This document shows, in pieces, positions 10,927-43,051 of a stretch of DNA of 43,373 nucleotides. The stretch is from the NCBI GenBank assembly GCA_905612525.1, contig CAJQSG010000030.1, forward strand, positions 1-43,373. Direction: 5' to 3'. Each line of letters starts with the position of its first letter. The stretch's first letter is position 1. The notes below the pieces were generated by a model. That model did no database searches, was not told the DNA's origin, and was given only the letters and a program-made list of their open reading frames with translations. Both the position numbers and the translations under genes were made by a program. Source of the stretch: an uncultured Candidatus Pelagibacter sp. Its GTDB lineage: Bacteria; Pseudomonadota; Alphaproteobacteria; Pelagibacterales; Pelagibacteraceae.

Positions 10927-11527
10927 TTTTTAAATCCATAAGTGTTTTTCTATTGTTCTCAGGTTCATTGTTTATACGACCTCTATATGATCCTGGCTTA
11001 GGTGTTTCACCACTTAAGATTATATCTAAAATTTTTAATGTTTTACCTTTATTTAAATCTTCATAATATTCATCATTTATCTGCATCATAGGTGCGTTAA
11101 CACATGCACCTAAGCACTCTACTTCCATCCAAGAGCAACTTAAATCTTTTGATAATTTATTTTCATTTTCAGAAATTTTTTCTTTACAAGCTTCAACAAG
11201 TTTATGTGCGCCTCTAATCATGCATGGTGTAGTTGTACAAACTTGTATAAAATATTTACCCACAGGAGCAAGATTATACATTGTATAAAATGTTGCTACT
11301 TCGTAAACCTTTATATAGGGCATGTCTAAGAACTTACCTATATATTTCATTGCAGCTAATGGAATCCAGTTACTGTTTTGTTTTTGTGCGATATAAAGTA
11401 AAGCCATTACAGCGCTTTCTTTTTTATCTTTAGGATATTTTTCAGCAATTGATTTAGCTGCTTCTAATGAAGCTGAATTAAATTCGAAATTCTCAGGCTG
11501 TTCTTTTGAAGGTCTTCTTATACTCAT
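10919..11527 (-). CDS. nuoE: NADH-quinone oxidoreductase subunit E
   Basis: [31 protein letters not shown]...[14 protein letters not shown] 2Fe-2S thioredoxin-like fold. Confidence 0.95.
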
Positions 11528-26454: not shown

Positions 26455-27789
26455 CTACTGTCCATATAGATAGGCCGGAAGCCACAAAGCAATCTGTGGA
26501 AATACTATGATTAAAATTAAACCAATTACTTGGATGACCATAAATTGCATCATGCCATAATAAATATCTTTAAGATCCCACTCTGGAACCACACCTTTTA
26601 AAAAATAAGCAGATAGAGCAACAGGAGGTGATAGCCATGCGGTCTGGAGGTTTACAGCAACAAGTATTGCAAACCAAGTTAAATTAAAACCAAGCGCCTC
26701 AACTAATGGCAATATTATTGGCACTATAATCATAACAATTGGTACCCACTCTAAAGGCCACCCTAAAAGAAAGATCATACCCATAATCATTGCCAGAATT
26801 AAATATCTATTCATTTCTAAACCCAGTAAAAATTCAGTCATAAGCATTGGTGTTCCCAACCTAGCAAATACTGCACCAAAAAAGTTTGATGCTGCAACTA
26901 AGACCATAATCAATGCTGAAATTTCTAATGTTTTAACTAAAGCATCTTGTAATTTTTTTAATGTTAGTTTCCTATATCCTAGGGCTAACAATAGTGATCC
27001 TAAAGCACCGCATCCCGCAGCCTCTGTTGGTGTTGCAAATCCAAATAAAATACTACCTAATGCAGCCGTAACCAATAAAGCTGGTGGTACTAAACCAAAA
27101 AAGAATTCAATCCAAACTTCTTTCATGCTGCCAGCTCTTTGCTCTAAAGGTAAAACTGGACCCAGACTTGGATCTATCCAGCACCTAATTGTTATATATA
27201 AGGCATAAAGTCCTGCTAATAATATTCCTGGTATTATTGCAGCTGCAAAAAGATCTATAACTGGGATTTCCATTATTGGTCCCATCACAACAAGCATAAT
27301 GCTCGGAGGTATTAAAATACCAAGAGTACCACCTGCCGTAATTGTTCCAGCAGCTAACCTGACGTTATAGCCTGATTTGTTCATGGATTTCGCAGCCATA
27401 ATTCCTAAAATTGTTACTGATGCCCCAACAATACCTGTTGCTGCAGCAAAAATAACTGACACAAACAACACAGCATAATACAGCGCACCTCTAACTCTGG
27501 ATAGCATTAGTTGGAAAGCTGAAAATAATCTTTCCATTAATCCTGCTCCTTCCATCATAATACCCATAAAGACAAAGAGTGGGACAGCAGCAAGAGTTTG
27601 CTCGGTCATAACCATTGAAAACTGTAAAGTCATTAAATAAAAAACTAAATGACCAAATCCTAAGAAACCAAATACAAATCCTAAGAAAATTAACGTAAAA
27701 GAAATAGGAAATCCTATGAATATTGCAAATAACATTACACCAATTAAAATAAAACCCAAAATAGCTGGATCAATAAATTCTGCTAACAT
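26455..27789 (-). CDS. dctM: TRAP transporter large permease subunit
   Basis: GFPISFTLIFLGFVFG, LAAVPLFVFMGIMMEGAG, GTLGILIPPSIMLVVMG. Start reset to MLAEFIDPAILGF from the ORF-track start at 27810. Confidence 0.94.
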   Translation of the reverse strand: MLAEFIDPAILGFILIGVMLFAIFIGFPISFTLIFLGFVFGFLGFGHLVFYLMTLQFSMVMTEQTLAAVPLFVFMGIMMEGAGLMERLFSAFQLMLSRVRGALYYAVLFVSVIFAAATGIVGASVTILGIMAAKSMNKSGYNVRLAAGTITAGGTLGILIPPSIMLVVMGPIMEIPVIDLFAAAIIPGILLAGLYALYITIRCWIDPSLGPVLPLEQRAGSMKEVWIEFFFGLVPPALLVTAALGSILFGFATPTEAAGCGALGSLLLALGYRKLTLKKLQDALVKTLEISALIMVLVAASNFFGAVFARLGTPMLMTEFLLGLEMNRYLILAMIMGMIFLLGWPLEWVPIVMIIVPIILPLVEALGFNLTWFAILVAVNLQTAWLSPPVALSAYFLKGVVPEWDLKDIYYGMMQFMVIQVIGLILIIVFPQIALWLPAYLYGQ

Positions 27790-28403
27790 TATTTTTTTTC
27801 TCCAGGCCACTCACCCTTAGTTGATGCCCAATAACTTTTAAGTAATTCTGAAATTCCTTGTATCAACAAAAAAACTATTCCAACCCATAAGCAAGCTTTT
27901 ATAGGCCACATATAAGGCATCCAACCAGAGTCCATAGCTTTTTCACCTCGTTGGAATGACTCATAAACAAAAATATTTGTCATATATAAAAAAACTATAA
28001 GTCCTGGAAAATAAAATATTAAATAAAGCCAAAAATCTACAAGTCCTTGTGTTTTAACTTTAAAATTTCTATATAAAAAATCTGCTCTTATATGAACTCC
28101 CTTAGATAATGCATATCCAGCACCTAGCATAAACATTGCTCCGTAAAGAAAGCGGCTAACATCGTAAGCCCAATATGTTGGTGCTAAAAATAATTTTCTA
28201 GCAAAAACTTCGTAGGTCATAGCTAATATCAAGGGGATAGTTAACCAACAAACAACATTACCCACCCATTTACTAAATAAATCAATTCTTGTAATAGTTA
28301 ACACCATCCATTTTGGCATATTATTAGGCATTTTTCCTGAACTATCTCTTCGTTCAGCTATCATCTCATCAGAAATATCTAATTTGATTGGTTCTTGTGC
28401 CAT
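27789..28403 (-). CDS. dctQ: TRAP transporter small permease subunit
   Basis: 204 aa with 4 TMs, lies between SBP and DctM; LAMTYEVFARKLFLAPTYWAYDVSRFLYGAMFMLGAGYALSKGVHIRADFLY. Confidence 0.92.
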   Translation of the reverse strand: MAQEPIKLDISDEMIAERRDSSGKMPNNMPKWMVLTITRIDLFSKWVGNVVCWLTIPLILAMTYEVFARKLFLAPTYWAYDVSRFLYGAMFMLGAGYALSKGVHIRADFLYRNFKVKTQGLVDFWLYLIFYFPGLIVFLYMTNIFVYESFQRGEKAMDSGWMPYMWPIKACLWVGIVFLLIQGISELLKSYWASTKGEWPGEKK

Positions 28404-28421
28404 AAAATTTTGTGATTAAAT

Positions 28422-28454
28422 AAACAAAGCGGATTTATAAAATCCGCTTTGTTT
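28422..28454 (-). promoter_or_regulatory. Perfect 15-bp inverted repeat, 3-nt loop, between dctP and dctQ (putative attenuator/mRNA-stabilising hairpin)
   Basis: AAACAAAGCGGATTT-ATA-AAATCCGCTTTGTTT on plus strand; every base of the arms pairs. Confidence 0.85.
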
Positions 28455-28474
28455 TAAATTAATAGTTAATTTAA

Positions 28475-29569
28475 TTATTTTAATGTATTTGCGTGAGCCA
28501 TTCCTAGCTTAGCATTAGACATTTGAGCACCACTCCAAAATGGAACAGCTATATCAGCAAAAGCTTTTTGGGAATCCCAAACTTTTTTGAAAAATGCATT
28601 TTCTTTTGAATTTCTCTCTAAAGTAGCTTTAGCTGCTGCCATATACTCTGTAAAGTAATCAGAAGGAGTATCTTCTAAAATAACTCCATGAACCTCTGTT
28701 AATTCTTTTAAAGCCTTACCATTTTCGTAAATTCTATAGCTTAAAGATTTATTCAAAGATGCATTAGCCGCAACTTCCATTGATTTTTTTTCATGTGCCG
28801 AAAATGATCTGTATGTTTTACCGTTAACATAAAAATCAGCATTAACAACTACTTGGTGCAAACCCTGCAAATAATAGTGTTTTAACACCTTTTGAAAACC
28901 AAAGACCATGTCAGGTTTTGGACAACACCATTCAGCAGCATCAATTGTTCCTGCTTGTAACGCTGGAAGAATATCTCCACCACCCATTGCAACAGAAGCT
29001 ACACCAATATCTTTGTAAGTTTGTCCAGGTATTCCTGGAGGAGTTCTGAACTTATATTTTCTAAAGTCAGCCATACTTTCCATTTTTTCTGGAAACCAAC
29101 CCAATGCTTCTGGACCAGCGGGTTGAAGCATAAATCCTTTTATGTCTCTTCCCATTTCTTTCCATAATTGCTCATAAAGCTCTTTACCACCAGCATACTG
29201 AAACCATGATAAAAATGCTATATTATCAATACCAACACCTGAACCTGCTACTGGAGAACCAAATAACATTGTAGCTGGATGGTCACCCCAATAGTGAGTC
29301 CATGCAAAACCACAATCTAATAATCCTTTATCAATTGCATCTAACGTTTCTTTACCACCAACTACAGTGCCTTTTGGTAGGATTTCAAATTTAAGTGATC
29401 CACCAGTTAGTTCAGTTACTGTATCAGTGAAGTCTTTTAACATTGTAACTTCATCTGCTTTCGGATTAAGCACAGTTTGACATTTCAATGTTTTTGCAGC
29501 ATTCGCTCCTGTAACTGTCATAACAGTTAAAAGAAGAGATCCTACAAATAATGATATGATTTTTTTCAT
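28475..29569 (-). CDS. dctP: TRAP transporter substrate-binding protein (DctP-type, TakP-like)
   Basis: Signal peptide MKKIISLFVGSLLLTVMTVTGANAA; LPALQAGTIDAAEW motif; precedes dctQM. Start reset from 29659. Confidence 0.92.
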   Translation of the reverse strand: MKKIISLFVGSLLLTVMTVTGANAAKTLKCQTVLNPKADEVTMLKDFTDTVTELTGGSLKFEILPKGTVVGGKETLDAIDKGLLDCGFAWTHYWGDHPATMLFGSPVAGSGVGIDNIAFLSWFQYAGGKELYEQLWKEMGRDIKGFMLQPAGPEALGWFPEKMESMADFRKYKFRTPPGIPGQTYKDIGVASVAMGGGDILPALQAGTIDAAEWCCPKPDMVFGFQKVLKHYYLQGLHQVVVNADFYVNGKTYRSFSAHEKKSMEVAANASLNKSLSYRIYENGKALKELTEVHGVILEDTPSDYFTEYMAAAKATLERNSKENAFFKKVWDSQKAFADIAVPFWSGAQMSNAKLGMAHANTLK

Positions 29570-29718
29570 ATTAATTTTTCCTCTCATTGTGTTTTTTATA
29601 AAAAAGAACTCTCTCAAAAAAATAAATCTAAAACAAGAGCTAATATCATTATTTACCACCTAATATTACCGTGAACACTAGTATTTTTAATTTTACAGAT
29701 TATAAACTTCCTATTCTT

Positions 29719-31314
29719 ATGGATAATTTTAATTATATAATTATTGGTGCTGGTTCGGCTGGTTGTGTTTTGGCTAATAGACTTTCAAAAAACCCAAACA
29801 ACAAAGTACTTTTAATTGAAGCTGGAGGTAAAGATAACTACCCCTGGATTCATATTCCTGTGGGTTATTTTAAAACCATGCACAATCCAGATGTAGACTG
29901 GTGTTATAATACTGAGCCTGATGAAACTATGAATAATAGATCTATAAGGTATCCAAGAGGTAAAACACTTGGTGGAAGCTCTTCTATTAATGGATTATTA
30001 TATATAAGAGGCCAACATAAGGATTATGATACTTGGAGACAATTAGGAAATAAAGGTTGGGGTTGGAAAGATGTTTTACCTTATTTTATAAAAGCAGAAA
30101 ATCAAGAGAGAGGTCAAAGTGAATTCCATGGTATTGATGGCCCATTATTCATATCTAATCAGAGAATGCACCTTCCGTTGTTAGATGAATTTCAAAATGC
30201 TGCTGAAGAATTTGGTATTCCAAAAACAAGAGATTTTAATACAGGTGACAATCATGGTTGTGGTTACTATCAGGTGACAGTAAAAAATGGTTTTAGATGT
30301 AGTACTGCAGTTGGTTATTTAAACCCTGTAAAAAAAAGACCTAATTTAAAGATTATTACAAAAGCTCATGTTAAAAAAATTAATTTTGAAAATAAAATTG
30401 CTAAAGAAGTTGAGTATTGGATTGAAAATCAACTATTCACTGTAAGTGCAAATAAAGAAATTATCTTATCAGCAGGAGCAATTGGCTCTCCTCAGATTCT
30501 ACAAGTATCAGGCATCGGCAATTCAGAAAAATTAAAAAACCTTGATATTGAAATGGTTCATGAATTAAAAGGTGTAGGTGAAAATTTACAAGATCATTTA
30601 ATGTTTAGACCAATTTATAAAATCCAGAATATTAAATCTTTGAATAAAAAAATTAATAGTTTATTTGGAAATTTGATGATTGGATTAGAGTATGTATTTA
30701 ATAGAAGTGGCCCTATGACAATAGGTGCAAGTCAATTAGGTATGTTTGCTAAAAGTGACCCCACTTTAGAGATGCCAGATCTACAATGGCACGTTCAACC
30801 AATGAGTATGGATACATTGGGTGCTACTAAAAATCATAATTTTCATGGATTCACACCAACTGTTTCAAATATTAGGCCGACAAGTAAAGGTCATATTAGC
30901 ATTGTAGATAGAGATTCAAGAACATTTGCAAAAGTAAAAATGAACTACTTATCAACTGATGCAGATAGAAAAATTGCAGCTGCAGGACTTAAGCTAACAA
31001 GAAAAATTGTTTTAGAATCAGAAACTTTTAAAAAATACAATCCTGAAGAATATCGTCCTGGCCTTCATTTAAATAAAGATGAGGAAATTTTGCAAGCAGC
31101 AGCAGATTATGCCCAAACAATATTTCATCCCGTTGGAACTTGTAAGATGGGTCAAGATGATATGGCTGTTGTTGATGATGAATTAAAAGTTAAGGGTATA
31201 AAAAATTTAAGAGTAATAGACGCTTCAATAATGCCTAATATTACATCTGGTAATACAAATGCTCCTACAATAATGATTGCAGAAAAAGGTGCAGACATGA
31301 TACTAAACAACTAA
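29719..31314 (+). CDS. GMC family oxidoreductase (choline dehydrogenase-like)
   Basis: YIIIGAGSAGCVLANRLS; RGKTLGGSSSINGLLYIRG; NTNAPTIMIAEKGAD. Start reset from 29671. Confidence 0.93.
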   Translation: MDNFNYIIIGAGSAGCVLANRLSKNPNNKVLLIEAGGKDNYPWIHIPVGYFKTMHNPDVDWCYNTEPDETMNNRSIRYPRGKTLGGSSSINGLLYIRGQHKDYDTWRQLGNKGWGWKDVLPYFIKAENQERGQSEFHGIDGPLFISNQRMHLPLLDEFQNAAEEFGIPKTRDFNTGDNHGCGYYQVTVKNGFRCSTAVGYLNPVKKRPNLKIITKAHVKKINFENKIAKEVEYWIENQLFTVSANKEIILSAGAIGSPQILQVSGIGNSEKLKNLDIEMVHELKGVGENLQDHLMFRPIYKIQNIKSLNKKINSLFGNLMIGLEYVFNRSGPMTIGASQLGMFAKSDPTLEMPDLQWHVQPMSMDTLGATKNHNFHGFTPTVSNIRPTSKGHISIVDRDSRTFAKVKMNYLSTDADRKIAAAGLKLTRKIVLESETFKKYNPEEYRPGLHLNKDEEILQAAADYAQTIFHPVGTCKMGQDDMAVVDDELKVKGIKNLRVIDASIMPNITSGNTNAPTIMIAEKGADMILNN

Positions 31315-31907
31315 TGTTTGCAGAATTTTTCGTATCCGAACAACTTATTATATTAACTCAAATAATTTTTATCGATTTAGTTTTGGCTGGAGATAACGCC
31401 ATCATAATTGGCATGGTTGCATCTAAATTCCCAGTAGAGCAAAGAAAAAAGGTAATTTTTTGGGGTATAGGTGGTGCTGTAGTTTTAAGAATTATTTTAA
31501 CAATGATGACTGCTTATTTGCTTCAAATAACAGGGTTAAGACTAATTGGTGGTTTGTTGTTACTTTATATTATTTACAAACTTTATGTCGATGTGATCAA
31601 GGGCCAATCTGGTGACGAGGATGTAAAAATAGATAACTCAAGTTTTATTAAAGCCATATGGACAGTTTTACTTGCAGATTTTACAATGAGTTTGGATAAC
31701 GTTTTAGGTGTTGCGGGCGCTGCAGGAGATCATTATGTTCTACTAGTTTTTGGATTAACTTTATCAATAATTCTTATGGCAACTGCTGCTAATTTAATAT
31801 CAAAATGGATTACTGAGTATAAATGGATTGCTTGGATAGGTTTATTTGCTATTTTAATCGTTGCTGTTGATTTAATATATACTGACATAAAGATACTCCT
31901 ACTTTAA
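31314..31907 (+). CDS. TerC/YjbE family integral membrane protein
   Basis: IIFIDLVLAGDNAIIIGMVAS and LLADFTMSLDNVLGVAGAA. Confidence 0.9.
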   Translation: MFAEFFVSEQLIILTQIIFIDLVLAGDNAIIIGMVASKFPVEQRKKVIFWGIGGAVVLRIILTMMTAYLLQITGLRLIGGLLLLYIIYKLYVDVIKGQSGDEDVKIDNSSFIKAIWTVLLADFTMSLDNVLGVAGAAGDHYVLLVFGLTLSIILMATAANLISKWITEYKWIAWIGLFAILIVAVDLIYTDIKILLL

Positions 31908-32672
31908 ATGTTTAAAAAGATAGACTTAAAAAATAGAACAGCGTTAGTTACAGGTGCTGGGAAAGGACTGGGCAGAGCCACTGCTATTGCTTTAGCGGAA
32001 GCTGGTGCAAAAGTTGTTATAGTTAGCAGAACTCTGTCTGACTTGATCAAAGTTGAAAAATTAATCAAAAAAACTAAAGGCTCGTGTTTAAAATTTGAAT
32101 GTGATGTGACTAATCTTAATAGATTTAAGGATATTTTAAAAAAAATAAAAAAACTAGATATACTAGTTAATAACGCTGGTAACAATCGTCCAGAACATTT
32201 CACAAAAGTTAAAAAAGAAAATATGGAATACTTGGTTGAACTAAATATGAAAGCTGCTTTTAATGTAGCTCAAATGTGCTCTCAAAAAATGGTTGAGTTA
32301 AAAGATAGAAAAAAAGTAGGAGGTTCGATTATTAATATGTCTTCGCAACTAGGAAGGGTTGGCGCTCCAATAAGAAGCGTTTATAATATGACAAAATTTG
32401 GCCTAGAAGGTTTAACAAGGGGTATGGCTCTTGAGTTGGGAAAGTACAATATACGAGTTAACACAGTCTGCCCTACTTTCGTTGCTACTCCTATGGTTAA
32501 AGAATTCTTAAAAAATAAAAAATTTAAGCAGCAAGTATTAGAGAACATTCCTCTTGGAAGACTTGCTGAAGAAAACGATGTCTCAACAGCTGTTGCTTTT
32601 TTAGCAGCTGATAGCTCGAACTCAATTACCGGAACATCATTTATGGTGGATGGAGGATGGACTGCAAAATAA
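31908..32672 (+). CDS. SDR family oxidoreductase, tandem copy 1
   Basis: TGAGKGLGRATA, NNAG, YNMTKFGLEGLTRGMALEL, VDGGWTAK. Confidence 0.93.
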   Translation: MFKKIDLKNRTALVTGAGKGLGRATAIALAEAGAKVVIVSRTLSDLIKVEKLIKKTKGSCLKFECDVTNLNRFKDILKKIKKLDILVNNAGNNRPEHFTKVKKENMEYLVELNMKAAFNVAQMCSQKMVELKDRKKVGGSIINMSSQLGRVGAPIRSVYNMTKFGLEGLTRGMALELGKYNIRVNTVCPTFVATPMVKEFLKNKKFKQQVLENIPLGRLAEENDVSTAVAFLAADSSNSITGTSFMVDGGWTAK

Positions 32673-33436
32673 TGCCTAAATTTTTAAAAGATATTAATCT
32701 AAAAGGCAAAGCTGCACTAATAACAGGTGCAACAAAAGGTATTGGTAGATCAACTGCAGTTGCCATGCATCAAGTTGGGGCTTCTATTATAGCTATTGGT
32801 AGAAATACTCGTGAGCTAGCTTCTTTAAAAAGAAAATTAAGAACAAGAATTCAATGTATTGAATGTGATGTAAATGATTATGAAAAAATTAGCAAAGAAA
32901 TTGAGAAAATAAAAAAAATTGATATTCTTGTTAATAATGCGGGTACGAATTTACCGGAACCTTTTTTAAAGGTTAAAAAATCATCATTAGAAACGCTGTT
33001 AAATATTAATATAAAATCTGCTTTTAATGTGGCAAAACTTTGTACAGAAAAAATGTTAAAACTTAAAAATAGAAAAAAAATTGGTGGCTCTATAATTCAT
33101 ACTTCATCAATGTTTGGGCTTGTAGCAGGACCCAACAGAACCGTTTATAGCATGACTAAATTTGGAATTGAAGGTTTAACAAAAGGGATGGCTGTAGATT
33201 TAGCTAAATTCAATATAAGAGTTAATAGTGTCTGCCCTACTTTTGTTGCAACACCAAGAGCTAAAAAATATTTAGCTAATAAAGAATTTAATAAATACGC
33301 ATTAAGTAATATTCCGCTTGGCAGAATTGCCACAGAAAGTGATGTGGCAACAGCAATTACATACTTAAGCTCTAATGCAGCATCAATGATAACTGGTAGT
33401 TCAATAATTATTGATGGTGGATGGACTGCAAAGTGA
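32672..33436 (+). CDS. SDR family oxidoreductase, tandem copy 2
   Basis: TGATKGIGRSTA, NNAG, YSMTKFGIEGLTKGMAVDL, IDGGWTAK; same 254-aa length as copy 1. Start reset to 32672 (TAATG overlap). Confidence 0.93.
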   Translation: MPKFLKDINLKGKAALITGATKGIGRSTAVAMHQVGASIIAIGRNTRELASLKRKLRTRIQCIECDVNDYEKISKEIEKIKKIDILVNNAGTNLPEPFLKVKKSSLETLLNINIKSAFNVAKLCTEKMLKLKNRKKIGGSIIHTSSMFGLVAGPNRTVYSMTKFGIEGLTKGMAVDLAKFNIRVNSVCPTFVATPRAKKYLANKEFNKYALSNIPLGRIATESDVATAITYLSSNAASMITGSSIIIDGGWTAK

Positions 33437-37489: not shown

Positions 37490-38153
37490 GGATAGTCTTC
37501 TTAAGCTAAAAAACGTTAATCTTAAATACCTAACTGGTAATGATACTATAAAGGTTTTAAAGAATGTTAATTTAGAGACTAAAAAAAATGAGTCTATTTC
37601 AATAGTTGGAGAAAGTGGATCTGGAAAAACAAGCTTAATCATGCTTGCTGGAGGTTTGGAGAAAACAACATCGGGTAAGATATTTTTTGAAGATCAAGAA
37701 ATATCTAAAATGAATGAAGATGAAGTTTCTAAAATTAGAAGAAAAAATATTGGAATTGTTTTTCAATCTTTCTATCTTATCCCAAATTACACTGCAGTTG
37801 AAAATGTTGCTCTAACCTTAGAGTTAAATAATTTAAAAAACCCTAACGAACGAGCTAAAGAATTGTTGGATCGATTTGGGTTAAAAAATAGGTTTAATAA
37901 TTTACCAAGTCAACTTTCAGGTGGTGAACAGCAGCGTGTAGCAATTGCAAGAGCTATAGCCATGAAGCCTAAGCTAGTATTGGCAGATGAACCTACTGGA
38001 AATTTAGATAGTGAAAATTCACAAATGATTGCAGACATTTTGTTTAAATATATTAAGGAAGAAAAATCATCTTTAATTATGGTCACCCACGATCTGAAAC
38101 TTGCTAATAAAGCAAAAAGAAAAATCAAAATCAAAGATGGAAAAATTGTCTAA
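37488..38153 (+). CDS. ybbA: ABC transporter ATP-binding protein, YbbA/LolD type
   Basis: Walker A GESGSGKTSL, signature LSGGEQQRVAIARA, Walker B LVLADEPTGNLD. Confidence 0.92.
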   Translation: MDSLLKLKNVNLKYLTGNDTIKVLKNVNLETKKNESISIVGESGSGKTSLIMLAGGLEKTTSGKIFFEDQEISKMNEDEVSKIRRKNIGIVFQSFYLIPNYTAVENVALTLELNNLKNPNERAKELLDRFGLKNRFNNLPSQLSGGEQQRVAIARAIAMKPKLVLADEPTGNLDSENSQMIADILFKYIKEEKSSLIMVTHDLKLANKAKRKIKIKDGKIV

Positions 38154-40662
38154 GCTTTCAGAGTACAAGTTGACTTTGGTATATGCCTTAAGAGACTTAA
38201 GCAGAAATTATAAAAAAATTTTTAGTATTATCTTAACACTTTTTATTAGTTTATTTATCTTAAGTTCAATTTTCACAATTGAAGATAGTTTAAACAAAGA
38301 ACTAAATAATAACTCAAGAGCACTTTTGGGTGGTGATATAGAAATTGATTACAATCGTAATGTTGTCAATTTAGATTTAATTAACCAAGTTAAAGAATTT
38401 GCTACTGTTTCTCAAATGGTTGAGTTTAGCACCATGATCTCAACTACTGATAAATCAATATTTTCCAGAATTAAAACAGTAGATGAAAATTACCCATTAT
38501 TTGGCAAAGTGGGTTATGAACCAAGTGGTGCATTTGAAAAGTTACAAACTACAGAAAACACAATACTTGTTAATGAAAATATTTTCAAAAATCTTAATTT
38601 AGAAATAAATGATAAAATCAAAGTTCAAGACAAACTTTTTACTGTAATTGGTATTGTAAAATCTGTGCCTGATATTGGGGGTGCTTTTGTATTTGGTGAT
38701 TTTGCCTTAGCAGGAAAACAAACATTAGAACTGTTAAAACTTAATAATTTAGGTAGCTTTTTAAACTATGAATATAAAGTAAAATTTAATGAGAGGGATA
38801 ATCCAAAAACTTTATCTAAAAGGATTGAACAATTATTTAAAGATGAAAAAAAAGTTAGACTTAGATATCATGAAAAATCTGATGGTCCTTTAAAGAGAAT
38901 AATTGATAATTTCTCTCAATTTTTGTCCCTTGTATCAATTAGCGCAATGTTAATTGCTGGAATTGGGATTGCTAACACCCTACTTTCATTCATAAATCAG
39001 AACAATATGTCTATAGCAGTTAAGAAGTCTTTAGGCTTTTTCTCAAAGGATATTAAAATAGTCTACTATCTACAATTACTCATTTTATTATTATTAATTT
39101 CTATCGCGGCCTACTCTTTTAGTTTCTTTCTAGTCCCTATTGTGGATGTTTATTTGTCAGCTGGTCTTGGGTTAAATATTGAAGGTAGTTTTTCTATTAT
39201 TAATTATTTCAAAGTTTTTTCAGTAGGTTTATTAGTATTAGTAATATTTTCTATACCAACCATTAATGCAATTGATCAGATTAAAGCTTCAAACTTGTTT
39301 CGTAATGTATTTCAAAACCTTCAGTTTTATTATTCTAAAAAATCAATCGTTTTAAGTCTATTTTTATTATCGATTTTGATTTCTTTATTTACTATTGGTT
39401 CAGCTCGACCCATTTTTAGCTTGGGTTATTTTGGAGCTTTCTTTGTTTGTCTATTGGTCTTCTATTTATTATCAAACTTAATTATTAAATTATTCAAAGG
39501 ACTTAAAGAGCATCCAAATATTTCAATTAAAGTATCGGTTAAAAATATCACTCAAACTAAAAGTATTACTCCTATAACTATTATGTCCTTAGGTTTAGGT
39601 GTCACCTTATTGTTAACTTTAGCTTTTGTTGGTTCAAACTTTAAAAGAGAAATTGCAAAATCTATACCAGAACTTGCTCCTGATTATTTTTTCATTGGTA
39701 TTCAAAACGATGAAAGGCAAATATTTGAAGATTTAATTTTTGATATGGATAAAGAAGCTAACCTTGAAGTTGTACCTATGGTCTCAACGGGTATTGTAAA
39801 AATTAATGGAATAGATCCAAATAGTTATATCGATTCGAGTAATGACAGCCACTGGGTAATTAGAAATGACAGAAGGTCTTCTTGGGCTGATAAAGTTTTA
39901 AAAGATAATCCGATTGTTGCCGGTGAATGGTGGGATTTAAGCAGACCTGATAAACTTCAAATTTCACTTGATAATAAAATTGCTAAAGATTTTAATATTG
40001 AAATTGGTGATATTTTTACACTAAATATTTATGGTCGTGAAATTGAAGGTGAGATCGTAAACTTTAGATTGGTTAACTACAGAGATTTTACTATTAACTT
40101 TGCAATGTTATTAAATCCTCAGTTTGCAAAAAATATACCTCATGAATATTTGGCCACTGCAAAGTTTAAAAGTTTAGAAAATTTTAACGAAATTGTCTTG
40201 TTGGATAAAATGCCTAGTCTTTCTATTATAAAAATTACTGATTACTTGGAAAAAGTAACCGATCTATTAAACAAAGTGTTTATTGCTGTAACTGTTATTT
40301 CCGCAATAACTATAGTCATTGGTTTAATTGTCATATCAAGCGCAATTATAGTTCAGGGAAAAATTAAAGAATTTCAAAACTTAATATTTAAAATTCTAGG
40401 CTTTTCTAAGGTTGAGGTTGTGCTCTCTTCAATCATTGAGTTTTTTATTATATTCACATCCATAATTCTAATAGCTCTATTTTTTGCAGTTATAGGTTCA
40501 CAATTTATCATCGAAAATATTTTCCAAATTACTTGGATGTTTGATTTGGCAATATTTTTAAAGGTAACTATTGGTATTGGACTTGCTACATTAATTTTAA
40601 TTATGATTACTAATTTTAAGTATTTAAGCCCTAAAGTTTACCCACTTATAAGAAATCAATAA
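38137..40662 (+). CDS. ybbP: ABC transporter permease, YbbP/FtsX-like
   Basis: Large permease with MacB/FtsX-type repeats (LLAGIGIANTLLSFINQNNMSIAVKKSLGF); follows ybbA with 17-nt overlap. Start reset from 38101. Confidence 0.88.
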   Translation: MEKLSKLSEYKLTLVYALRDLSRNYKKIFSIILTLFISLFILSSIFTIEDSLNKELNNNSRALLGGDIEIDYNRNVVNLDLINQVKEFATVSQMVEFSTMISTTDKSIFSRIKTVDENYPLFGKVGYEPSGAFEKLQTTENTILVNENIFKNLNLEINDKIKVQDKLFTVIGIVKSVPDIGGAFVFGDFALAGKQTLELLKLNNLGSFLNYEYKVKFNERDNPKTLSKRIEQLFKDEKKVRLRYHEKSDGPLKRIIDNFSQFLSLVSISAMLIAGIGIANTLLSFINQNNMSIAVKKSLGFFSKDIKIVYYLQLLILLLLISIAAYSFSFFLVPIVDVYLSAGLGLNIEGSFSIINYFKVFSVGLLVLVIFSIPTINAIDQIKASNLFRNVFQNLQFYYSKKSIVLSLFLLSILISLFTIGSARPIFSLGYFGAFFVCLLVFYLLSNLIIKLFKGLKEHPNISIKVSVKNITQTKSITPITIMSLGLGVTLLLTLAFVGSNFKREIAKSIPELAPDYFFIGIQNDERQIFEDLIFDMDKEANLEVVPMVSTGIVKINGIDPNSYIDSSNDSHWVIRNDRRSSWADKVLKDNPIVAGEWWDLSRPDKLQISLDNKIAKDFNIEIGDIFTLNIYGREIEGEIVNFRLVNYRDFTINFAMLLNPQFAKNIPHEYLATAKFKSLENFNEIVLLDKMPSLSIIKITDYLEKVTDLLNKVFIAVTVISAITIVIGLIVISSAIIVQGKIKEFQNLIFKILGFSKVEVVLSSIIEFFIIFTSIILIALFFAVIGSQFIIENIFQITWMFDLAIFLKVTIGIGLATLILIMITNFKYLSPKVYPLIRNQ

Positions 40663-40830
40663 TTTTTTGATTTGCATGAAGTTCTGATAATTTTCTAGCA
40701 GCGGATAAACCTGTGTAACCAGCACCTACTATTAACCAGTCACAGAATTCATTTTTTTCTAAAGTTTTTATATTAGATCTTGCATCAGGTCATTGATCCA
40801 ACCACACCTATTATCATTAACTACATTCAT
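40663..40830 (-). pseudogene. N-terminal remnant of a FAD-dependent (DAO-type) oxidoreductase, possibly TauY-like
   Basis: Manual translation: ATG at 40830 gives MNVVNDNRCGWINDL..., then in another frame PDARSNIKTLEKNEFCDWLIVGAGYTGLSAARKLSELHANQKII, which stops being family-like at the ybbP end. GAGYTGLSAAR is a Rossmann FAD motif. Confidence 0.7.
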
Positions 40831-40838
40831 GTAGTTAA
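40817..40838. repeat. Near-perfect palindrome, 10-bp arms with 2-nt centre
   Basis: TTAACTACAT-TC-ATGTAGTTAA; all 10 pairs match. Confidence 0.8.
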
Positions 40839-40850
40839 ATTATGACAGAT

Positions 40851-40871
40851 AAGATATTTTTAAAAGATCTT
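40851..40871 (-). terminator. Possible hairpin at the xsc 3' end
   Basis: AAGATATTTT-T-AAAAGATCTT, 9 of 10 pairs; overlaps the xsc stop codon. Function as terminator is unproven. Confidence 0.3.
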
Positions 40872-42654
40872 AAGATACCAATGAAGGTTGCTTAATCATG
40901 TCTTCTTTATTGATCCCCGCAACTTTAACAGGAGCTTTCATTGCATCTCTTCTGAAAGGCTCACCCAGTTCTTGGTTTAGAATTACTTCAATAAATGTTG
41001 TAATTCCTTTCTTTTGATCTTCACAAGACTGTTTAATAGCAGCTGTGGTCTCTTCCATTGTACGAACCGTAACTCCTTTTAATCCACAAGCATCAGCAAC
41101 TTTTGCATAACTTAAATTAGGATCAAGTTCTGTTCCAATAAAATTATCATCATACCATAAGGTTGTATTTCTTTTTTCCGCTCCCCACTGATAATTTCTG
41201 AAAATTACCATTGAAATTGCTGGCCATTCAGGTCTTGCCACGGAACTCATTTCGTTCATACTTATTCCAAACGCACCATCTCCTGCAAAACCTATTACTG
41301 GTGTATCAGGACATCCAATTTTTGCTCCAAGAATCGATGGAAAACCATAACCACATGGACCAAATAATCCCGGTGCTAAATATTTTCTACCTTTTTCGAA
41401 TGTAGGATAAGCATTTCCAATTGCACAGTTATTACCAATATCACTTGATATAATTACATCATCAGGCATACCTGCTTGAATTCCTCTCCATGCTTCTCTA
41501 GGAGACATTCTATCTGCATCCCTTTTTCTAGCCTCAGCATTCCAAACTGTACCTTCATCATCATCCTCGTGATCTAAGCTTGACAATTCTTGTAACCAAG
41601 CTGATTTAGTTTGGTGAATAGTATTTTTTCTTTCTTCTCTATTCGTATCTCCTGCTGTTGGGGAGAGTTGAGCTAAAATTTGTTGAGCTACTAGTTTTGC
41701 ATCCCCACAAATACCAACTGATACTTTTTTAGTTAAACCAATTCTATCTGAGTTCATATCAACTTGAATGATGCTTGCGTCTTTTGGCCAATAATCCATT
41801 CCATAACCTGGTAAAGTTGAGAAAGGATTTAATCTTGTACCAAGTGCAAGAACAACATCTGCTTTGCTAATTAATTCCATTCCAGCTTTTGATCCATTAT
41901 ATCCTAATGGTCCAGCAGCTAATGGGTGACTCCCAGGAAAGCTGTCATTATGTTGGTACCCAGAACAAACTGGGGCATCTAGTTTTTCAGCTAATTTTTT
42001 ACAATCTTCAATCGCTCCACCAATCACAACACCAGCACCAGATAATATTACTGGAAACTTAGCATTTGATAATAAGTCAGCAGCTTTTTTAATTGCCTCA
42101 ACACCACCTGCTTGTTTTTCTAATCTTACAATTGGAGGAAGGTCTATATCGATTACTTGTGTCCAATAATCTCTTGGAACATTTATTTGTGCTGGAGCTG
42201 ATCCTCTAATTGCTTTTTCGATTACTCTATTTAATACTTCTGCCATTCTTGAAGGGTCTCTAACTTCTTCTTGATAGCAAACCATATCTTTAAATAAATT
42301 CATTTGTTCTACTTCTTGAAAACCACCTTGGCCCATAGTTTTATTTGCAGCTTGTGGTGAAACTAAAAGTAACGGTGTGTGATTCCAGTATGCAGTTTTA
42401 ATTGGTGTAACAAGACCAGTAATTCCAGGGCCATTCTGTGCAATAACCATTGACATTTTACCAGTAGACCTGGTGTAACCATCTGCAATTAATCCACCAT
42501 TAGTTTCGTGTGCTACATCCCAAAAAGTTATTCCAGCATCAGGAAAGATATCTGAGATAGGCATAAAGGCTGAACCAATTATTCCGAATGCGTGTTCAAT
42601 TCCGTGCATTTGTAAAACTTTTACAAAAGCTTCTTCTGTTGTCATTTTGGTCAT
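40870..42654 (-). CDS. xsc: Sulfoacetaldehyde acetyltransferase
   Basis: TPP-enzyme with Xsc-like N-terminus TTEEAFVKVLQMHGIEHAFGIIGSAFMPISDIFPDAGITFWDVAHE and NVPRDYWTQVIDIDLPPIVRLE. Confidence 0.92.
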   Translation of the reverse strand: MTKMTTEEAFVKVLQMHGIEHAFGIIGSAFMPISDIFPDAGITFWDVAHETNGGLIADGYTRSTGKMSMVIAQNGPGITGLVTPIKTAYWNHTPLLLVSPQAANKTMGQGGFQEVEQMNLFKDMVCYQEEVRDPSRMAEVLNRVIEKAIRGSAPAQINVPRDYWTQVIDIDLPPIVRLEKQAGGVEAIKKAADLLSNAKFPVILSGAGVVIGGAIEDCKKLAEKLDAPVCSGYQHNDSFPGSHPLAAGPLGYNGSKAGMELISKADVVLALGTRLNPFSTLPGYGMDYWPKDASIIQVDMNSDRIGLTKKVSVGICGDAKLVAQQILAQLSPTAGDTNREERKNTIHQTKSAWLQELSSLDHEDDDEGTVWNAEARKRDADRMSPREAWRGIQAGMPDDVIISSDIGNNCAIGNAYPTFEKGRKYLAPGLFGPCGYGFPSILGAKIGCPDTPVIGFAGDGAFGISMNEMSSVARPEWPAISMVIFRNYQWGAEKRNTTLWYDDNFIGTELDPNLSYAKVADACGLKGVTVRTMEETTAAIKQSCEDQKKGITTFIEVILNQELGEPFRRDAMKAPVKVAGINKEDMIKQPSLVS

Positions 42655-42766: not shown

Positions 42767-43051
42767 ATGGCTACAGATATCATTATACATGACGAAAAAG
42801 ACAACGTAGGAGTGGTTGTTATTGATAAAATTATTCCAAAACAAGATTGTGCTTGCTGGATTATGGAGAATGATAAAACAATTCAAATTCAATCTGTAGA
42901 TGAAATTCAATTAGGACATAAGATTGCAATGGTTGACCTTAATGAAGGTGATACTATTTTGAAATATGGTCATGACATTGGAAAAGTAGTTAAATCAATC
43001 AAAAAAGGTGAGCATGTTCATGTTCACAATGTTAAAACGAAGAAGTGGTAA
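42767..43051 (+). CDS. suyA: UxaA/SAF-domain protein, probable (R)-sulfolactate sulfo-lyase subunit alpha
   Basis: 94-aa SAF domain ([14 protein letters not shown]...[46 protein letters not shown]), followed by the large subunit and next to xsc. Confidence 0.78.

Follow-up and report, generated by a model that had tools for sequence, protein, structure and literature searches.

A very probable pseudogene behind xsc in Pelagibacter: the 5' end of an accessory FAD oxidoreductase gene distinct from TauY

Among the DAO-superfamily flavoproteins encoded beside xsc, the gene of sulfoacetaldehyde acetyltransferase, TauY of the Sinorhizobium meliloti SMb21529 type has been tested genetically (PMC4254191). 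We used the xsc clusters of Sinorhizobium, Cereibacter, Paracoccus, and Aminobacter as the TauY reference set, and in these clusters an NTF2-like TauX and an FAD protein are encoded directly before xsc. The Candidatus Pelagibacter gene described here is also a DAO-superfamily gene beside xsc, but it follows xsc where TauY precedes it, shares 20–23% identity with TauY proteins whose genes adjoin xsc together with tauX, falls in a separate clade, and lacks the partner TauX. DAO-family FAD oxidoreductases from other proteobacteria (Leisingera, Acinetobacter, and Oceanisphaera plasmids) belong to the same clade as the Pelagibacter gene and are 35–39% identical to it over the full length; some of them adjoin RidA, cupin, or TRAP-transporter genes, and they are unlinked to xsc. 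Our literature search found no paper describing the xsc-linked oxidoreductase gene of Pelagibacter.

The stretch of DNA analysed as a whole (hereafter the window) comprises 43,373 nt from an uncultured Candidatus Pelagibacter sp., whose draft genome (G000) amounts to 802 kb in 53 contigs and is 64.67% complete. Directly behind xsc, the window holds a 168-base stretch that we consider, with high confidence, to be a pseudogene that retains the 5' end of a 434-codon FAD oxidoreductase gene, accessory and specific to Pelagibacter, which belongs to the DAO superfamily and is not TauY. In the reading frames of 40,600–40,900, an ATG at 40,830 on the minus strand, 39 nt from the xsc stop at 40,870, opens MNVVNDNRCGWINDL, after which the PDARSNIKTLEKNEFCDWLIVGAGYTGLSAARKLSELHANQKII block follows in a different frame. 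The dinucleotide-binding N-terminus of an FAD oxidoreductase continues one frame over and stops at the stop codon of the convergent ybbP gene, and the interval 40,659–40,830 represents the first ~57 codons of an FAD-dependent (DAO-fold) oxidoreductase gene. A 44-residue block of the remnant matches intact genes of 430–460 codons in 25 genus-mates (best E-value 2.7e-19, 81% identity), so the remnant is not a chance reading frame. At the DNA level, the region is 96% identical to that of the relative G332 over 242 nt (E = 1e-109), and alignment with G332, G267, and G255 places the absence of one base from the window at codon 15–16. The remnant differs from the G332 gene by five nonsynonymous and two synonymous changes over 56 codons, which are too few to prove relaxed selection. 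The domain profile search of the window did not list the remnant itself, which is too short. The preliminary description had reported a decayed DAO-type gene, co-oriented with and directly behind xsc, with this start and gap, a frameshift near codon 15, and a truncation at the ybbP stop; the reading frames and the intact copies at the same junction in relatives bear it out, with the truncation falling inside the repeat shared by the deletion ends (Table 1).

Table 1 Features of the xsc–ybbP junction and its neighbours in the window.
Feature	Coordinates	Strand	Evidence or remark
First remnant segment: from the start codon through codon ~15 (MNVVNDNRCGWINDL), up to the one-base frameshift	40786..40830	-	Reading frames, alignment
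Second remnant segment: codons ~16-58, read after the frame change (DARSNIKTLEKNEFCDWLIVGAGYTGLSAARKLSELHANQKII), dinucleotide-binding N-terminus	40659..40788	-	Reading frames, homologue matches, alignment
Junction of the deletion: repeat of 4 nt (minus-strand TTAT) common to both deletion ends, overlapping the ybbP stop codon	40659..40662	.	DNA alignment
xsc: sulfoacetaldehyde acetyltransferase, intact, 594 aa	40870..42654	-	Passes equivalog profile TIGR03457 (955.7 bits, cut-off 676.4)
ybbP-like FtsX/MacB permease, convergent with the remnant	38101..40662	+	C-terminus unaltered by the deletion
Small subunit (suyA-like) of a split enzyme of the UxaA/galactarate-dehydratase type, divergent from xsc	42767..43051	+	

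A comparison of the xsc–ybbP junctions of related SAR11 genomes, suggested in the preliminary description, revealed how the gene was interrupted. The DNA search took in 399 genomes of the genus, one genome per species, and in three close relatives (G332, G267, and G255; 93–96% identical to the window over the remnant) an intact 434-codon gene lies between xsc and ybbP. The alignment gap in the window runs from codon ~58 of the oxidoreductase gene to the ybbP stop. In G332, TTAT stands at both ends of the segment missing from the window, with a copy-to-copy length of 1,136 nt, and the C-terminus of ybbP is identical between the window and G332. Two signs of a pseudogene are present, namely an intact orthologue at the equivalent position in close relatives and inactivating lesions (the one-base frameshift and the 1,136-nt deletion). 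These comparisons show that one base was lost at codon 15–16 and that the segment was deleted between two TTAT copies, of which one stands at codon ~58 and its partner at the stop of the convergent ybbP; slippage or end-joining at this short repeat is the probable mechanism. The loss would have been tolerated because the enzyme is accessory and other routes can feed xsc, the most plausible being a taurine transaminase together with an alanine dehydrogenase, both encoded on another contig of this genome. A tree of xsc DNA places the window genome, with strong support, inside a set of relatives whose oxidoreductase is intact, and the break is therefore recent and lineage-specific. The remnant is ordinary gene loss, cleanly resolved in a streamlined bacterium, with both lesions and the repeat still readable and a working gene in close relatives. 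Separately, G255 has a tandem duplication of the 3' terminus of its intact oxidoreductase gene immediately ahead of the ybbP stop (L103, about 11,220–11,285), which indicates that the convergent junction itself is prone to short rearrangements.

The intact 434-aa gene of G332, G267, G255, and G026 occupies, like the remnant, the orthologous position and strand behind xsc, with two genes inserted between xsc and the oxidoreductase in G026. Among the intact copies of G332, G255, G267, G501, and G026, dN/dS is 0.09–0.15, and the gene is therefore under purifying selection where it is present; this full-length, constrained gene contrasts with the ~57 frameshifted codons of the window. Within the family sample, half of the 50 other genus-mates carry the oxidoreductase and 25 do not, and xsc is kept in 24 of the 25 without it, which makes the oxidoreductase accessory. 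Where the gene is found, it lies on the xsc strand within 9 kb of xsc in 24 of the 25 genomes (the exception is G083) and directly behind xsc in 17, and the linkage persists in genomes with genes inserted between the two. Such linkage could be a legacy of ancestral gene order, or it could be functional, as in the oxidation of another sulfonated amine. G276 shows an independent decay of the gene, with 73 N-terminal codons left 3.4 kb behind xsc, and the gene is frame-broken in G447 and G547, possibly through assembly errors.

The genes between xsc and the oxidoreductase or TRAP block vary. In G026 (L071, 14,012–16,378) they are a flavin-monooxygenase-like gene (533 aa) and an SDR gene. Several genus-mates carry in this interval a ~611-aa NodU/CmcH-type carbamoyltransferase (L079, 8,310–11,729; L088, 5,428–7,794; L089, 9,245–11,615; L157, 10,461–13,905; the family is shown for L079), accompanied by a ~127-aa protein for which NCBIfam returned no match.

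Transamination of taurine with pyruvate, coupled to alanine recycling in the Tpa/Ald pathways, is expected to be encoded by a transporter, a transaminase, and an alanine dehydrogenase lying together. This arrangement is found on another contig (C4) of the window genome, where a TauA-like binding protein, a TauB-like ATPase, and a TauC-like permease are encoded beside an omega-aminotransferase (2,264–3,610 of C4; NF052567, 577.6 bits, cut-off 500) and an alanine dehydrogenase (TIGR00518, 479.4 bits, cut-off 391.85). The closest solved structures to the aminotransferase are beta-alanine/omega-amino acid:pyruvate transaminases, and from its sequence and context the enzyme is predicted to act on taurine, which would give an alternative route to sulfoacetaldehyde. 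The gene block is conserved both in genus-mates with the oxidoreductase (G026 and G074) and in others without it (G097 and G143). The TauA-like binding protein is nearly universal in the genus, and its correlation with the oxidoreductase is uninformative. The predicted sulfonate block on C4 (L181, 1,103–8,569) also holds an L-sulfolactate-dehydrogenase-like gene (best profile NF040650, below cut-off), which is unmatched in G097 while the rest is conserved in the four genus-mates checked.

We weighed the pseudogene reading against two other explanations of the remnant. One is that the remnant derives from TauY and marks the loss of taurine dehydrogenation in a genome that kept xsc and suyAB, as the preliminary description had proposed; we regard this as most improbable. 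The DAO fold and the place and strand directly behind xsc would agree with it, as would the adjacency of TauY and xsc in Sinorhizobium, Cereibacter, and Paracoccus. The low identity to TauY given above and the opposite side of xsc on which TauY lies speak against it, and in the maximum-likelihood tree the Pelagibacter family and its non-SAR11 relatives form one group that a branch of length 2.98 with 100/100 support separates from TauY. Neither the window nor any of the Pelagibacter loci retrieved contains a match to TauX. Outside SAR11, the best matches are other FAD (DAO) oxidoreductases away from xsc, a non-taurine DAO family; within about 10 kb of the nearest of these homologues there is neither a true xsc nor TauX, the single weak Xsc match there (22% identity) being a distant ThDP enzyme. 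On these grounds we rejected the TauY identity of the remnant, and a nucleotide-binding motif alone is insufficient to call an xsc-adjacent gene TauY. A lost taurine-dehydrogenase step is likewise unsupported, in view of the retention of xsc in nearly all genus-mates without the gene and of the route predicted on C4. Because a route to sulfoacetaldehyde is plausibly retained without the oxidoreductase, the remnant does not point to a broken taurine pathway, which looks complete in the absence of this gene. An intact tauXY was searched for in the available 64.67% of the genome and not found. The other explanation is an assembly or amplification artefact, in which a chimeric or miscalled junction hides a gene that is intact in the real cell; this we find very unlikely. 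It draws on the fragmented, incomplete draft and on the uniqueness of the junction, which is absent from every other genome searched (the 399 genus genomes, the named genomes, and viral contigs). The incompleteness of the draft also means that a second intact copy could lie elsewhere in the genome. However, a shared repeat of 4 nt is too short to mislead a k-mer assembler, both sides of the junction match the relatives in order and orientation, the frameshift is an independent second lesion within the same remnant, and the oxidoreductase gene is broken or absent in relatives too. Loss of an accessory gene in a real cell is thus the reading that we retain.

The role of the intact gene is a related question, and the gene itself, as a Pelagibacter-specific oxidoreductase linked to xsc, is the useful lead. 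The orthologue is placed in the DAO superfamily by PF01266 (139.6 bits, cut-off 27.9, positions 1–351 of 353). The best NCBIfam matches to the whole protein, L-pipecolate oxidase AmaA (NF050086) and a putative aminophosphonate oxidoreductase (TIGR03329), reach about 110 bits, far under their curated cut-offs of 600 and 632.8. From fold and family, the enzyme probably oxidises an amine or amino acid. A low-confidence AlphaFold model (pLDDT 62) matches glycine and sarcosine oxidases, which confirms the superfamily only; these predicted likenesses fit an amine or amino-acid substrate and nothing further. A profile search of solved structures returned no match to the oxidoreductase at E 1e-6, and the genes around the closest homologues outside SAR11, which include regulators and TRAP transporters along with other unrelated genes, gave no clear signal of a substrate. 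It is conceivable, though unlikely, that the gene encodes an unrecognised, TauX-independent flavin dehydrogenase specific to Pelagibacter that delivers sulfoacetaldehyde to Xsc from taurine, N-methyltaurine, or a related sulfonated amine; the window genome would then have lost a side route while the transaminase route stays. The persistence of the xsc linkage despite inserted genes is consistent with such a sulfonate-amine dehydrogenase, as are the amine oxidases of the glycine/sarcosine type that are the nearest folds to the weak model. Inherited position alone can explain the linkage, however, no homologue outside Pelagibacter lies near a true xsc, and the gene is missing from half of the xsc-bearing genus-mates. 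If the enzyme did feed Xsc, it would have been gained by, or kept in, part of the genus, and its presence or decay would mark differences in sulfonate use among SAR11 strains.

A second SAR11 DAO family, represented in G026, G035, G063, and G170 and giving the best SAR11 matches to TauY (26–30% identity), was considered and rejected as the xsc-linked gene. It occurs in 4 of 197 family genomes (L123–L126), lies away from xsc, and groups with TauY on long branches only; a search of the 64.67% complete window genome found no match to this TauY-like family.

Around the remnant, the window xsc gene is very strongly constrained, with dN 0.0018 and dS 0.30 against G332. Further along the window (26,455–33,436), TRAP transporter genes stand divergent from a GMC oxidoreductase of the choline-dehydrogenase subfamily, after which come genes for a TerC-family protein and two SDR dehydrogenases. 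An isethionate route through the GMC oxidoreductase and the TRAP transporter (26,455–31,314) was considered, but it is conjectural, as the profile names the choline-dehydrogenase subfamily only. The whole block is conserved near xsc in many relatives and is possibly another substrate-uptake-and-oxidation module.
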